DNA of 64,000 bases. Origin: Aurantiochytrium sp. KH105 (Eukaryota; Sar; Bigyra; Thraustochytrida; Thraustochytriidae). A program made the translations under genes and the position numbers. The stretch's first letter is position 1. Every line of letters starts with the position of its first letter. The stretch covers positions 248,001-312,000 of the forward strand of contig BGKB01000054.1 in the NCBI GenBank assembly GCA_003116975.1, read 5' to 3'. The notes under the pieces are model-generated. The model did no database searches. It was not told the DNA's origin and saw nothing but the letters and a program-made list of their open reading frames with translations. Below, one piece after another: positions 16,470-53,400 of the stretch.

Positions 16470-16584
<115 letters not shown>

Positions 16585-34017: not shown

Positions 34018-34033
34018 GCGGTTTTAGCTCAGG

Positions 34034-34066
<33 letters not shown>

Positions 34067-34090
34067 TGCGTTCGATCCGCGGAAACCGCA
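34018..34090 (+). tRNA. trnF-GAA: tRNA-Phe (GAA)
   Basis: A 73-nt intronless tRNA. The acceptor stem GCGGTTT pairs with AAACCGC and is followed by discriminator A. D arm GCTC/GAGC, anticodon stem TCAGA/TCTGA with loop CTGAAGA (anticodon GAA at 34051-34053), and T arm CTGCG/CGCGG with loop TTCGATC. The A box (TAGCTCAGGTGG) and B box fit pol III promoters. A run of nine T (34096-34104) six bases downstream is the terminator. CCA is not encoded, as expected for a nuclear gene. Confidence 0.97.
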
Positions 34091-34095
34091 CTTCC

Positions 34096-34974: not shown

Positions 34975-37900
34975 ATGGGCAAGGCCATTATGACAACGGC
35001 GTGGTGGTTGATTGTCTTGACGTGCCTTTCGTCTTGGGCAAGGCCCACGGAGGCCGCGGAATGCTCGTGCTGGGGGCCTAACGCTCCGCTCTGCGATGCG
35101 AGCACGACACAAGTCTATTGCGGTGGCCAGCAAATCTCCGAGACCCACCTCGCTGCTGTTCTTGCTTCCACTCCCAATGTGACCGTGCTGTACGTTTCTT
35201 CAAAATTTACCCCAAAAATGTTTGGTTTAGACCGACTGACCCTTTTGCTCTAGAGATGCAAACGGATGCGGCCTCTCGGCGCTTCCCGAAGACATCAAGG
35301 CTCTCACGAAGCTTGAATTTGTGTAAGTCTCAGGAACGCAACTTTTTCATTTTGGAGAAAAAGAAAATATCGTTAACGCTGCCATGAACGCTGACTTGCC
35401 GTGGCAGTAACCTGAGGGGGAACGAGATCAGCACCTTCCCGGACCTTCGCTCCTCTTCTGGCAGCCTCTACCATCTGTAGGTTCAATTACCGAGACGAAC
35501 ATTGGAAATGGTCAACTTACAAAGATTCATGTAGGAACCTCAATGAGAATCAGATTTCGTCCATTCCTGACAACATTGGAGATCTCTCGATGCTGAGTGA
35601 TTTGTAAGTAGTATACGCGCAAACACGATGATGTCACGTGTCTCGAACACGATGTGCTAACGGTGATATACCTTGAGTCATGTTTCTGACTTTTCGCAGG
35701 CTTCTTGGTACCAACATGATGATCTCGTCAGTTCCCTCGAGCGTCAGTAGTCTGAGTCGGCTGAGCACACTGTACGTTTTGTTACGTCTCCCTGCGTGGG
35801 ATGGGGGCTCATTTCCAGCGTCTAACCTTCGGTCTTTCTGTGCAAACTGCAGGCGACTCGAAATCAACAATTTCACTTCTTACCCCGAGGCGGTAAACAC
35901 CATCAGCAACCTCCAGCAACTGTACGTTATCGCGACTCCTTATGCCAGGCCCAGGAGAGAAAGGCGAATCTCACGATATACTCTTCTCTTGCCAGGGTTC
36001 TACTTGACAATGAGATCACTTCTGTTCCGGACTCGATCGGATCCCTTACCCGCCTCCGGTCCTTGTACGTATTGCCTCTTCTCCCTCGTAATTTGTCCTG
36101 CCGATGCCAAATACTGACTTGGAAACATTCTTCTTCAGGTTTATGGGTACCAATCAGCTCACATCCTTGTCTGCGGAGATCAGCAAGTGCTCGGATCTCT
36201 CGTCAATGTACGTTGGCCAAGAGTGAGCAGGTACGGTGTGCGTCCCGCCTCTTACTAACGTATCCTCCCTCTCCATCTCCTCTACTCCCATCATACACTT
36301 TACATGATAGCTCTTTGGGGGGCAACAAGCTTACCTCGATTCCTGACACCATTGGAAGTCTTTGGTATTTGCGCTCACTGTGAGTTAATGAAGAATGGAC
36401 GTTTTCGAGTACAAACGATCTGCAAGAAATCTGACAATCTCGCTTTGAGAGCGTAGATATCTCGCTTACAATACCTTCACGACATTTCCTGAAGAGGCTA
36501 TTACAGATAGATTGACGACTCTGTAGGTCTTTTGCATGGATGCGAGTTGTTGATGAGAGAATGCTGACATCTTGTTTCTGATCCAAGCGCCCTTGAAGGA
36601 AATGAAATCACTGAGATCCCAGACAGCATCAGCGCTATGAGTATTCTAAGTCACTTGTACGTTTGTTGCTGGTGTTGATTTGCGAATGACCAGGTGCTGA
36701 CATAATACGCTGTCATATGTTGACCTCGCAAAAGAGATCTCTCTTCCAACGCTCTTACTTCTCTGCCGGACGCAATCTGCTCGCTTCCGAGCTTGGGTCG
36801 TCTGTACGTTGTTTCATTTCTTGACGGAACGTCACAACAAGGATTCTTTCCGTACAAGAGCAGTGACGCGATACTGACTACGCTAGTTCTGTGCAACACT
36901 CCGATCTACACTCGCTCAGAGGGCTGGCAACGAATATGCTCACATCTCTCCCGAGCGAGTTTACAAATCTTACATCTCTGACAAGACTGTACGTTGTACG
37001 ATCGTAAGGCTCTGGCGCGTCTGCATCTAACGATTTACCTGAACACAGGACGCTTGGCTCAAACAACTTTGAAGCGATTCCGCCCGCGATCGAAGGGCTC
37101 TCGAACCTTCAAACTCTGTAAGTAGGCCTTTTGACTGTATGTCCAAAGTGGTGCTATGACAGCACATCGAGTGCTCACGACTTTGTGATTGCTGAGACTG
37201 CAGGGACCTTTCGAACGGGAATTTCTCCTCTGTCTCGGAGAGTTTCTTTCGCTCAATCTACAACCTTCAAGATCTGTGAGTTGCCCTGGCCTCAACTCTT
37301 CCTTTCTAATTAAGGTGAAGCGCGAACATGACGACCTGACCGAATCTCTCGCCTGAACGCAGCTCCCTCGCCTCGAACAGCCTCACCGCGATCCCGGATA
37401 CCATTGAGTTCATGTCCCACCTCGACACCCTGTGAGTTATTATACCCATTTTGTTGGAACATCGCAAGAGAGGAAAACACTCACTAACATGACGGACTTT
37501 CTTCCCGCAGCGACTTGTCTTCGAACAAGCTCGCGTCCCTTCCCGAGTCTGTCGGCACCCTCACTAGTCTGAATGCGCTGTACGTCTCTCTTTGAACAAA
37601 GAACCTTGACGCTTGCTTCCCTCTGCAGCGGGCAGGCCAACTAACCGTTACACTTTGCACGCAAAATCTATAGCTCTTTGAACTCCAACAAGCTCAGCGC
37701 GTTTCCAGACTCGATTGTCGGCCTTGAGACCCTGAGGAACCTGTAAGTCGGGCAAAGCGATAGAAGCTTGAGTTCAAGGAAGCTAACCTTTTGCGCACGC
37801 ACGGAACATGGACTGGAAAATTAAACCCAAAATAGCAACGCGAGCTTTAACGAGCTGACTTCTCTTCCTAACGACTTCGGCGACATTAAGACGCTGGCCA

Positions 37901-38444
37901 ATCTGTAAGTTTTTTCGCAAGCATATTGAAATTAGCTCAAATGGAATAGAGGCACTCAAGAGCTCGCGACTAAATTGTAATTGCTCTTTCATTTCCGAAC
38001 CTAAATAAACCCAGGGACCTGCAAAGTAACGCGCTCAGCGAGCTTCCGGAGAGTTTTGGCAGTCTCGTAAGAATGACGCAGCTGTAAGTGCACTTTGCTT
38101 TGGAAAAGACTCCACGAAATAGCAGATTGTGGCTGACGATTTCGTGACATGCGCGCAGCGATCTTTCGAACAACCCAATCTCGGCGCTTCCTTGCTCCAT
38201 GTCCGAACTCCCCTATCTTGCGCTGTCCGATATGTACGTTTGATCAAGAGTACTTGAATTTCTTTTGGAAGCTTTCCACTAACTATCTCGTTGTTCTCGC
38301 AGTGCGGTCTCTCCAAATATGTCGCTATCCTATGGGGATGGTGAAGAAGACTGCAACTCCAGTCCGTCAGCTTCAGCTTCACTTCTAGTCAATGCCTTCG
38401 TCGCAACGGGATCAATCCTTCTCTTCTCTCGTTCCATCCTCTAA
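34975..38444 (+). CDS. Secreted, probably GPI-anchored LRR protein; one LRR per exon (22 exons)
   Basis: A 581-residue protein read across 22 exons: 34975-35189, 35254-35322, 35408-35476, 35535-35603, 35700-35771, 35853-35921, 35996-36064, 36139-36207, 36311-36379, 36457-36522, 36588-36656, 36735-36803, 36920-36988, 37049-37117, 37204-37275, 37363-37431, 37511-37579, 37674-37742, 37836-37904, 38015-38083, 38159-38233, 38303-38444. All 21 introns have GT-AG ends and phase 2. The start is ATG 34975, opening a signal peptide (WWLIVLTCL) and a Cys-rich cap. Exons 2-21 each encode one LRR of 22-25 residues, pattern LxxNxLTSLPDxI, of the plant/bacterial SDS22-like type. The C-terminus has a Ser/Ala-rich stretch and a hydrophobic tail, fitting a GPI signal. 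Surface binding or adhesion is likely; the ligand is unknown. Confidence 0.88.
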
Positions 38445-50404: not shown

Positions 50405-53400
50405 TATGGTCCAAGATGAGTACCAGATCAGAACAATGCGTGAGCATGTCATTTTGCGCCCTCACATGTATGTGGGGGCGGTCGAGAACCAGGCGGAGGA
50501 CACGTTCCTTTATGATGACAAAACCTGCTCGATTCGTAAAGTGAAGGGTGTTTCCGTCAATCACGGCTTCCTAAGAATCATTTTCGAAGCCATCGACAAT
50601 GCCATCGACAACACTTACCGCACTCTCCCGGCCGAGACAAATCCGCGTGACGCTTGACTTGGTCCGCAACGAGGTGAGCGTATCAAATGACGGTCGCCAC
50701 ATCCCCGCCAAGCGCCATGACTTTGGCAAAGGTGTCGCGGACTGAGTGCCTTCCGTCATTTTCGGGAAATTATTGTCAGGCTCCAACTACTCTGGAGTCC
50801 GCAAAAGCACAGGCATGAACGGGCTCGGTGTGAAGCTCGTCAACATCCTATCGGATAGCTTCACTGTAGCCTGCTTCGACCCGGAAGAAGGCAAGCTTTT
50901 AAAGCAGGACTGGTCAAACAACATGGCCAACAGTGGGGTGGCTATCGTGAAGGGCCGAAAGAATGCGCCCCCTTGGAATGCTGTTACAATGGTCCGGTTC
51001 GTCCCGAGCCCCGAGCGTTTCAATGGCAGGACCCTGGACGCGGATGTCCTTGCGCAGGTTCGCACGCGTCTAGTCACGGTTGCCGCTACCCTGGAGCAGC
51101 GTGACGTTAAGATCTACCTCAACGGGAAGCGTCTCAAGGTGCCCACCTTCAAGGCATTCATCGGTCTCTTCAACCCGGGCCGTTTTCTCAATGATGAGGT
51201 CGTGGGCGATGGCTTCACTTTGCAGTATGGCGAGGGCATGTCTAGGACTGACAGCTTCGAGTGCACCTCTTTCGTGAACTCGCTGGAGACCACGAGTCCC
51301 AAGAGCGCGCATACCGCGCAAATCTTGCGCGCTGTGGTGGATATTATCGGCAAGCACCTCAAGAAGCCCAAAGCACACGCGAACGTCCGCTTGGTTAGGT
51401 CCACCATCACAAGCAGGCTGCACATTTGGGCAAACCTCCACATGTCGGACCCAACGTTCACGACACAGTCCAAGAAGGAACTCTGCTCCAAAGTGCCCCT
51501 TCACCATCGACGCAGACAAGGTACTGCGCATGGTGAAATAGCTGGGATTTTAAAGGATCTTGAGCAGGCACTGGAGGCCAAAGCAATGACCGCGCTAGGC
51601 CGAGAACTGAACTCCAAGGGGAGACGTCCGAACTTGCATGTGGAAAAGTTGCCTGACGCGCACGTCGCTGGGACTGCAAGGGGTCATCTCGCGACACTTT
51701 TCCTTGTCGAAGGCGACTCCGCCAAAACTTCTGTGAGCACTGGCCTCTTGGTGATAGGCCGCAAGCTTTACGGCGTATTCCCCATGCGCGGGAAGCCCCC
51801 TGAACGTGCGTGGTGCAAGTAGTGCGCAGATGGCCGGCAATAAGGAGGAGTTCCGCGATATCACGAAAATCATTGGTCTTCAACTTGGAAAGAAGTATGA
51901 CACTGACGATGCGAAGCGGTCTCTGCGATACGGCAAGGTCTGCATCCTTGCGGACGCGGATGTCGATGGACCTGGACACATTCCGGGTCTCATCGTGAGT
52001 ATCCCGCTCTGGCCAGAACTTGTCACACAGACAGGCTTCCTCTATCGCTTTCTCACCCCGGTTGTGATTGCAACGCGGAAATCGGGGGCGCCGCGGGGCG
52101 AGCGCTTGCAGTTCTATAGCAACGATGCGTTTGACGTGTGGGTCCAGTACCAAGATACCGCCCATTTTGAGTTCCAACACATTATAAGGGTCTCGGCACA
52201 TCAACGCGAGAAGATACGCTTTCCTACTTCCGAAACATGGAGGAAGTTCATCTGAAAAGATTTACCAATACACACGAATCCCCGTCTGCCCTTCGCGGCT
52301 TGCTCGACAACCTCTTCGGGCCTGGGAATTCAGGCTGGCGGAAGAAATGGACGGCCGAGGATGCGGTGAGCATGAACGTCGACGGGGACGAGAGCGCGGT
52401 GCCCCCGGCGCCCCGATACGGACGCGAAGGGAAGGACACGGACCTGGTCACGTATCTCATGACGTCCATGAAGCTCTACTCACTGTACAGCCTGGACCGC
52501 AGTCTCCCCTCTTCGGTCGATGGCTTCAAGTCTTCGTAGCGGAAGATCTTTTTCGGTTCTGTGCGAAATTTTGGTTCCAACCCGCGGGGAAAGCTCAAGG
52601 TTGCCAACCGCGGCCTATGTCGCGGAGAAAACGAACAATGCTCACGGTGAGGAATCCTTGCAAAAGGCGATCACCAAGATAGCGCAGGATTTCCCGGGCT
52701 CCAACAACGTGAATCTACTGGCGCCGATCGGCTCTTTTGGCTCACGCCTTGACCTCGGCGGTGATGCTGCGTCTGCGTGGTACACCTTTACAAACTTGAC
52801 GCGTGCTGCATGGAAGCTCTTTTCTCGTGAGATGGAACATGTTCTCGACTATGTCGAGGAAGAGGGCGTTCGCGGGGAACCAAGGTTCTTACGCGCCGGC
52901 ACTGCCAATGGGGGTCCTGCTGAATGGTGGTCGTGGTATCGTCACTGGCTTCAGCACGGTCGTCGCGTGCTTCAATCCGGTCGATATTAGGGAGTGCATC
53001 CTTGCCATGCTCCCTCCGTGGCAACCACGAAGTGTTGGCCAGGCCACTGATGCCTTGGTATAGAGGCTACAGGGCGAACCACTTAACGGAAGAGACGGCG
53101 ACATCGTGGGTCTTCGAGGGCATTGTGGTGCGAGGGGAGAAGGAAGGCACCTTCGTCACCGAGGAGCTTCCAGCAAACGTGGCAATTGATCGATACAAGG
53201 ATAAGCCGCTCGCATCGTTGCAGGAGGCCAAGGTCATCAAACAGGGCATGGTGGACCACTGCACTGAGAACAACCCCCGCTTCATCATCCTCATCCAAGT
53301 GGGTGAGGCCTGGGAACTTGACCGGAACCTGCCCGAGGACGCAGGTCTCCGTAAGCTCCCCGGTCTCAAAAGCTACATGTCAAATATGCGCATGCGCGTG

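Follow-up and report, generated by a model that had tools for sequence, protein, structure and literature searches.

A family of leucine-rich repeat genes built from one-repeat, phase-2-flanked exons in a thraustochytrid genome

We describe a leucine-rich repeat (LRR) gene, located in a 64-kb stretch of DNA (hereafter the window), in which each of 20 consecutive internal exons encodes a single LRR. The reading that we favour, and hold to be moderately probable, is that its product is a secreted LRR protein of the cell surface, probably with a GPI anchor, and that the gene belongs to a family whose members are arrays of 69-nt exons, each carrying one repeat and flanked by phase-2 introns. Exon structure, the shared intron position, membership of the family and, in some other members, tandem duplication of exon-plus-intron units can all be read from the DNA itself. 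The inferred display and function of the proteins are treated below as predictions.

Structure of the window gene

GT-AG splicing of the window sequence gave a gene on the + strand, at positions 34975–38444, with 22 exons and a 1746-nt coding sequence for 581 amino acids; the stop codon ends at 38444. The automatic first model differed from this one in five places (the N-terminal end, exons 7–8, exon 16, exon 18 and the C-terminal end), which were settled by LRR register and splice motif. The exons, all taken from the splice model and, for exons 1 and 22, also from hydropathy, are as follows.

34975..35189, + strand: exon 1, signal peptide plus Cys-containing N-cap, 71 aa, phase 2 at its end
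35254..35322, + strand: exon 2, LRR 1, 69 nt
35408..35476, + strand: exon 3, LRR 2, 69 nt
35535..35603, + strand: exon 4, LRR 3, 69 nt
35700..35771, + strand: exon 5, LRR 4, 72 nt
35853..35921, + strand: exon 6, LRR 5, 69 nt
35996..36064, + strand: exon 7, LRR 6, 69 nt
36139..36207, + strand: exon 8, LRR 7, 69 nt
36311..36379, + strand: exon 9, LRR 8, 69 nt
36457..36522, + strand: exon 10, LRR 9, 66 nt
36588..36656, + strand: exon 11, LRR 10, 69 nt
36735..36803, + strand: exon 12, LRR 11, 69 nt
36920..36988, + strand: exon 13, LRR 12, 69 nt
37049..37117, + strand: exon 14, LRR 13, 69 nt
37204..37275, + strand: exon 15, LRR 14, 72 nt
37363..37431, + strand: exon 16, LRR 15, 69 nt
37511..37579, + strand: exon 17, LRR 16, 69 nt
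37674..37742, + strand: exon 18, LRR 17, 69 nt
37836..37904, + strand: exon 19, LRR 18, 69 nt
38015..38083, + strand: exon 20, LRR 19, 69 nt
38159..38233, + strand: exon 21, LRR 20 and start of C-cap, 75 nt
38303..38444, + strand: exon 22, C-cap, Ser-rich stretch, hydrophobic GPI-like C-terminal end, stop

The initial annotation had claimed 20 internal exons of one LRR apiece, 16 of them of 69 nt, one of 66, two of 72 and one of 75, and both the GT-AG reading and a separate chain finder, which presupposes phase 2 and exon lengths of 63–78, recovered exactly these. Elsewhere in the 64-kb window the finder gave no chain of three or more exons; run on 100 shuffles and on 14 LRR loci whose frames are long and unbroken, it did not return even a chain of two. 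All 21 introns, which range from 58 to 116 nt, are in phase 2, as had also been claimed. A junction scan in which all three phases were allowed agrees, since its 18 LRR junctions in the window were all phase 2 and all within this gene, compared with a mean of 0.0 junctions over 50 shuffles of the gene region.

The introns split the first Leu position of the xxLxLxx motif. The claim that they cut the same Leu codon is correct for the position in the repeat, which is constant, but not for the codon itself, which is Leu in 18 cases, Ile in two and Val in one. Donor sites were GTACGT (10), GTAAGT (6), GTGAGT (3) and GTAGGT (2), so that GTRNGT describes 21 of 21. In simulated retention, 17 of the 21 introns introduced a stop and three more a frame shift; intron 5 alone introduced neither.

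The genome is weakly indicated to be that of a thraustochytrid by long matches to the PUFA-synthase model TIGR02813 (the best scoring 930 bits, under the cut-off of 1010; in a control, 11 of 14 genomes also gave matches) and by about 38 Mb for each haplotype and a GC content of 57% in the window, values close to the 38.7 Mb and 57% of strain CCAP_4062/3 (PMC5854782); the GC contents tabulated for other labyrinthulomycetes are 43–47% (PMC10101102). The assembly, of 76 Mb in 367 contigs, seems to contain two haplotypes, with the window on contig C54 and the partner gene on C201; the two contigs are 92.6 and 94.0% identical in two pieces over 26 kb. The C201 copy has all 22 exons, no exon indel and GT-AG at every intron, while intron length differs in 5 of 21. 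Differences between the two copies affect 39 of 1746 exon sites and 65 of 1721 intron sites, and for the whole gene allele dN is 0.013, dS 0.052 and dN/dS 0.26. Retention of exon lengths and splice sites in the second haplotype, together with this ratio, indicates that the gene model is supported by selection, and we consider it well supported at the sequence level. A pseudogene was rejected on the same ratio and because both haplotypes are stop-free with GT-AG intact.

The predicted protein

From its hydrophobic N-terminal end the predicted protein runs through a Cys-bearing cap and 20 LRRs to a C-cap, which is followed by a Ser-rich stretch and then by a hydrophobic C-terminal end. Residues 4–18 are hydrophobic and are followed by Cys at 30, 32, 40 and 49; residues 562–576 form the most hydrophobic 15-residue stretch of the protein. 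Anchors, whether GPI-like or membrane-spanning, were judged here and below by hydropathy rather than with a trained predictor. The 16 repeats encoded by 69-nt exons have the consensus LxLxxNxLTSxPDxIxxLxxLxx.

A Pfam scan matched LRR families only, both for this protein and for that of a relative (L062, below), and neither scan detected ROC-COR, NB-ARC or kinase domains. Among solved structures, 410 distinct sequences match the window protein, the best of the 60 listed being LRR proteins, with LRRD1, SHOC-2 and plant receptor kinases among them. When exon 1 was searched by itself, three weak matches (E 0.07–0.1) were obtained beyond the two haplotypes, to residues 7–42.

A family of split LRR genes

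Whole-protein searches favour long unbroken LRR arrays and returned mostly such frames. The view that the window gene is a lone oddity among intronless LRR genes was rejected when a single-exon query found split relatives. This query gave 16 matches: two in the haplotypes of this gene, three in long frames and 11 in short frames. Seven of the 11 short-frame loci were examined, including L062 and L063, which are likely alleles, and in all seven, 69-nt exons follow one another in chains and are joined at the same junction. The phase-free junction scan, which is an unbiased test of phase where the chain finder fixes it, placed 53 of 53 candidates in the first six relatives in phase 2; three of these candidates use a donor a second time. 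Taking one haplotype each of the window gene, L058–L062 and L064, a length of exactly 69 nt is shared by 90 of 96 exons, and the 88 introns of these seven loci measure 58–120 nt, with a median of 80. The one-repeat-exon design is thus a family trait and is not unique to the window gene. Many other LRR genes in this genome are unbroken frames, so LRRs here need not have this design.

Of 159 candidates from an exon query composed from the family, 150 were scored as matches, 135 of these in short frames; the matches form at least 41 clusters, both haplotypes counted. Queries with the N-cap and the C-cap found 27 and 30 copies, respectively, in both haplotypes and on 23 contigs together. Because the window gene and certain other members escape these end-domain queries, the family must exceed 27–30 copies.

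Three members had an N-cap exon that could be read (the window gene, L061 and L062), and others, including those at C59, C356, C98 and C367, were matched by search. The Cys-containing C-cap is followed by a GPI-like end in the window gene, L058, L059 and L061 and by a membrane span with a short tail in L060, L062 and L063; the last exons of the relatives were chosen by eye among candidate acceptors. Members are clustered locally in both orientations, at C17:376–394 kb and C17/C58:203–214 kb, and six N-cap copies lie on C17 in two clusters. Another copy lies at C54:161 kb, on the same contig as the window gene but outside the window, about 120 kb before it.

One open frame (L066, C17:202300–203300) has no Pfam match and lies near a family C-cap at C17:204.2 kb; the frame that holds this C-cap is 869 aa long. 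If that frame and L066 are one, there may be members with a long additional region.

Changes in array length

The initial annotation had pointed out that symmetric exons can be duplicated or lost in frame. Duplication is indeed seen in relatives. L058, L062 and L063 consist of two alternating exon types, and their best intron pairs are 82, 89 and 91% identical. L064, on C98, has 18 exons of 69 nt and contains 304-nt two-exon units, overlapping pairs of which are 96% and 94% identical. Array length has changed recently in some members.

The window gene itself showed no recent gain or loss. Its exons have a mean identity of about 45%, with 33% at third positions, and all 20 LRR exons are common to both haplotypes. 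Its introns are no more alike than shuffled sequences, apart from one borderline pair (score 18, shuffle maximum 17). The same comparison of exon and intron identity gave no sign of recent duplication in L059, L060 or L061. By these measures the window gene ranks among the old and stable members of the family. Exon count is also equal within all three likely allele pairs (the window gene, L062/L063 and L064/L065).

Variation at the putative concave positions

Repeat positions 2, 4, 5 and 7 and the last two are, as we take it from LRR structure, the solvent-exposed positions of the concave sheet. Between the window-gene alleles, 10 of 14 nonsynonymous but 1 of 15 synonymous changes in LRR codons fall at these positions. 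The set was chosen after the window-gene changes were known, and the other two pairs are fresh tests. Their allele status rests on 94.4% (L062/L063) and 96.2% (L064/L065) identity over 3.3 and 4.7 kb, and 2 of 11 and 2 of 18 exon pairs, respectively, were omitted because in the second copy the finder had not linked the exons into its chain. Concave pN and pS were 0.111 and 0.048 in L062/L063 and 0.052 and 0.017 in L064/L065; in the window gene pair they were 0.037 and 0.032, a ratio barely above one.

When the three likely allele pairs were pooled (45 exon pairs), concave codons carried 37 nonsynonymous and five synonymous changes, and other codons 11 and 32, giving pN/pS of 1.91 at concave positions against 0.12 elsewhere in the repeat (Fisher 4e-9). 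When all 74,613 six-position sets were compared on 69-nt exons, 17 performed as well as the concave set. A similar bias was seen between duplicated exons at three loci (16 per type), in which concave pN/pS was 1.81 and 1.39 for the two types and that of the rest 0.34 and 0.26, the latter values being lowered by construction since the types were sorted by framework motif. Amino-acid differences in these genes are therefore concentrated at the putative concave positions.

Overall, concave pN is only 1.14-fold the overall synonymous rate, and concave synonymous changes number just five, so that the data are compatible with relaxed constraint. This bears on a simpler account, in which the window gene encodes an ordinary adhesion or wall LRR protein with an ancient intron pattern and the concave changes reflect relaxed constraint only. 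Such an account fits the whole-gene allele dN/dS, the constant exon number in all three pairs and an intron position and phase like those of plant LRR kinases (PMC3050792), as well as the small excess of concave pN. It accommodates less readily a concave pN/pS above one in every pair (barely so in the window gene) and between duplicated exons, or the recent unit duplication in some relatives, and we regard it as rather unlikely.

Possible exon skipping

Another account is that the gene is a splicing device, in which different exon sets are skipped to give many LRR arrays from one gene. All its internal exons are symmetric; brown-algal genes of this build yield several splice forms (PMC11378527), and in human NLRP3, for which exon skipping has been demonstrated, there is a form without one LRR exon (PMC6642158). 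However, any one-repeat exon is symmetric, with no need for regulated skipping, and the donors of the window gene are uniform. Two alleles of relatives are suggestive, as skipping would preserve their frame. In L063 (C356), the acceptor AG of the second LRR exon, kept in L062, is missing at the aligned place; this exon is predicted to be skipped in frame unless another AG nearby is used. In L065 (C367), the seventeenth LRR exon has a one-base deletion as compared with L064, which may be a sequencing error, a broken allele or a skipped exon. On balance, a splicing device of this kind seems improbable for the window gene.

Origin of the introns

The introns might instead have been inserted singly, at the same target, into an already repeated intronless array. 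Many LRR genes in this genome lack introns, every repeat is cut at the same motif and the introns of the window gene are unlike one another, all of which such insertion would explain. In L058, L062, L063 and L064, however, the best-matching introns within a gene are 82–97% identical alongside similar exons, indicating duplication of exon-plus-intron units. One-by-one insertion is rejected for these relatives; the sequences of the window gene, L059, L060 and L061 do not decide. Also against it is a secreted LRR gene on C22 (L045, 1989 to about 3609) with exons of 69, 69 and 345 nt (5 x 69) and a long last exon. Its introns lie at the same phase-2 Leu junction, and three of the junctions recur on C12 (L055). 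This gene is in what looks like a half-way state, in keeping with an array that was once more finely split and has lost introns. As a general origin for the family's introns, serial insertion seems very unlikely.

A possible role in recognition

Taken as a predicted surface LRR family, these genes look like a system for diversifying recognition. The proteins would be displayed at the surface, where the concave face might bind a variable partner, such as a microbe, a prey surface or another cell. Selection would then favour change at the concave face, and unequal exchange in introns would lengthen or shorten the LRR arrays. For the window gene, an old member of equal length in both haplotypes, variety would come from point changes on the concave face. 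We tentatively suggest, as a possibility and not as our leading expectation, that the family constitutes a germline repertoire of surface LRR receptors for self/non-self or microbe recognition in a single-celled stramenopile, diversified by positively selected point changes on the binding face, by copy number of two-exon units and by allele-specific or regulated exon skipping.

Lamprey variable lymphocyte receptors are likewise LRR proteins of the cell surface in which the concave face varies, and are built by somatic DNA rearrangement. The predicted surface proteins described here share the variable face but are encoded by intact germline genes with introns, the window gene being complete in the assembly.

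The one-LRR-per-exon design is already known; what is found here is its occurrence with 69-nt exons and in proteins that look surface-anchored. The closest parallel is in brown algae, in which the LRRs of most ROCO genes are encoded by 72-bp exons, with shuffling, selected sites on the concave face and splice variants, and in which the genes with LRR exons comprise ROCO GTPases, NB-ARC-TPR genes and LRR-only sequences (PMC11378527). These are also stramenopile genes with one LRR per exon, phase-2 introns and exon duplication, and their variable sites are also on the concave face, positive selection being putative in our case. They differ from the present family in exon length, 72 bp as against predominantly 69 nt, and the ROCO and NB-ARC-TPR proteins differ from the window and L062 proteins, which scored no ROC-COR or NB-ARC domain and are likely secreted or membrane-anchored.

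In rice LRR kinases, phase-2 introns split the first Leu of xxLxLxx and 72-nt exons are common (PMC3050792). Plant LRR receptor kinases thus have the same cut and one-repeat exons, but they carry a kinase, which was absent from the window and L062 scans, and the window gene and L058–L063 terminate in GPI-like or short tails. Tetrahymena LRR genes contain arrays of 90-bp exons; they resemble the present family in exact exon length, phase 2 and recent expansions, and differ in the length itself (PMC6564038). Human modular LRR exons, such as those of NLRP3, also preserve the frame, although genes of that type have other exon lengths and domains and encode intracellular proteins (PMC6642158).

In searches of an open-licence literature library, we found no report of a one-repeat-exon LRR family in thraustochytrids. 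Brown-algal arsenals of exon-per-repeat LRR genes were described as candidate immune receptors, and a thraustochytrid family whose proteins appear to be displayed outside the cell would widen the range of this design in stramenopiles. The host organism is easily grown and sequenced, which makes it a setting in which to ask whether one-repeat exons and their introns are kept because recognition arrays can change length in frame.

Genomic surroundings

The initial annotation had remarked that the gene stands out among mostly intronless genes. Intronless neighbours are indeed common, but the design is family-wide. Of 10 long frames scanned in the window, nine had a Pfam domain above the cut-off in a single unbroken frame, including Rpn11, ribosomal L4 and ORC4; as these frames were picked for length, they establish that genes without introns are common here but give no estimate of their proportion. 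A tRNA-Phe (GAA) lies shortly before the LRR gene, at 34018–34091. The frame at 50815–51822 is similar to a portion of a type II topoisomerase (DNA_gyraseB, below the Pfam cut-off); because it ends early, it may represent either a gene fragment or a split gene. At 16470–16584 there is a perfect CTTT array of 28.8 copies.
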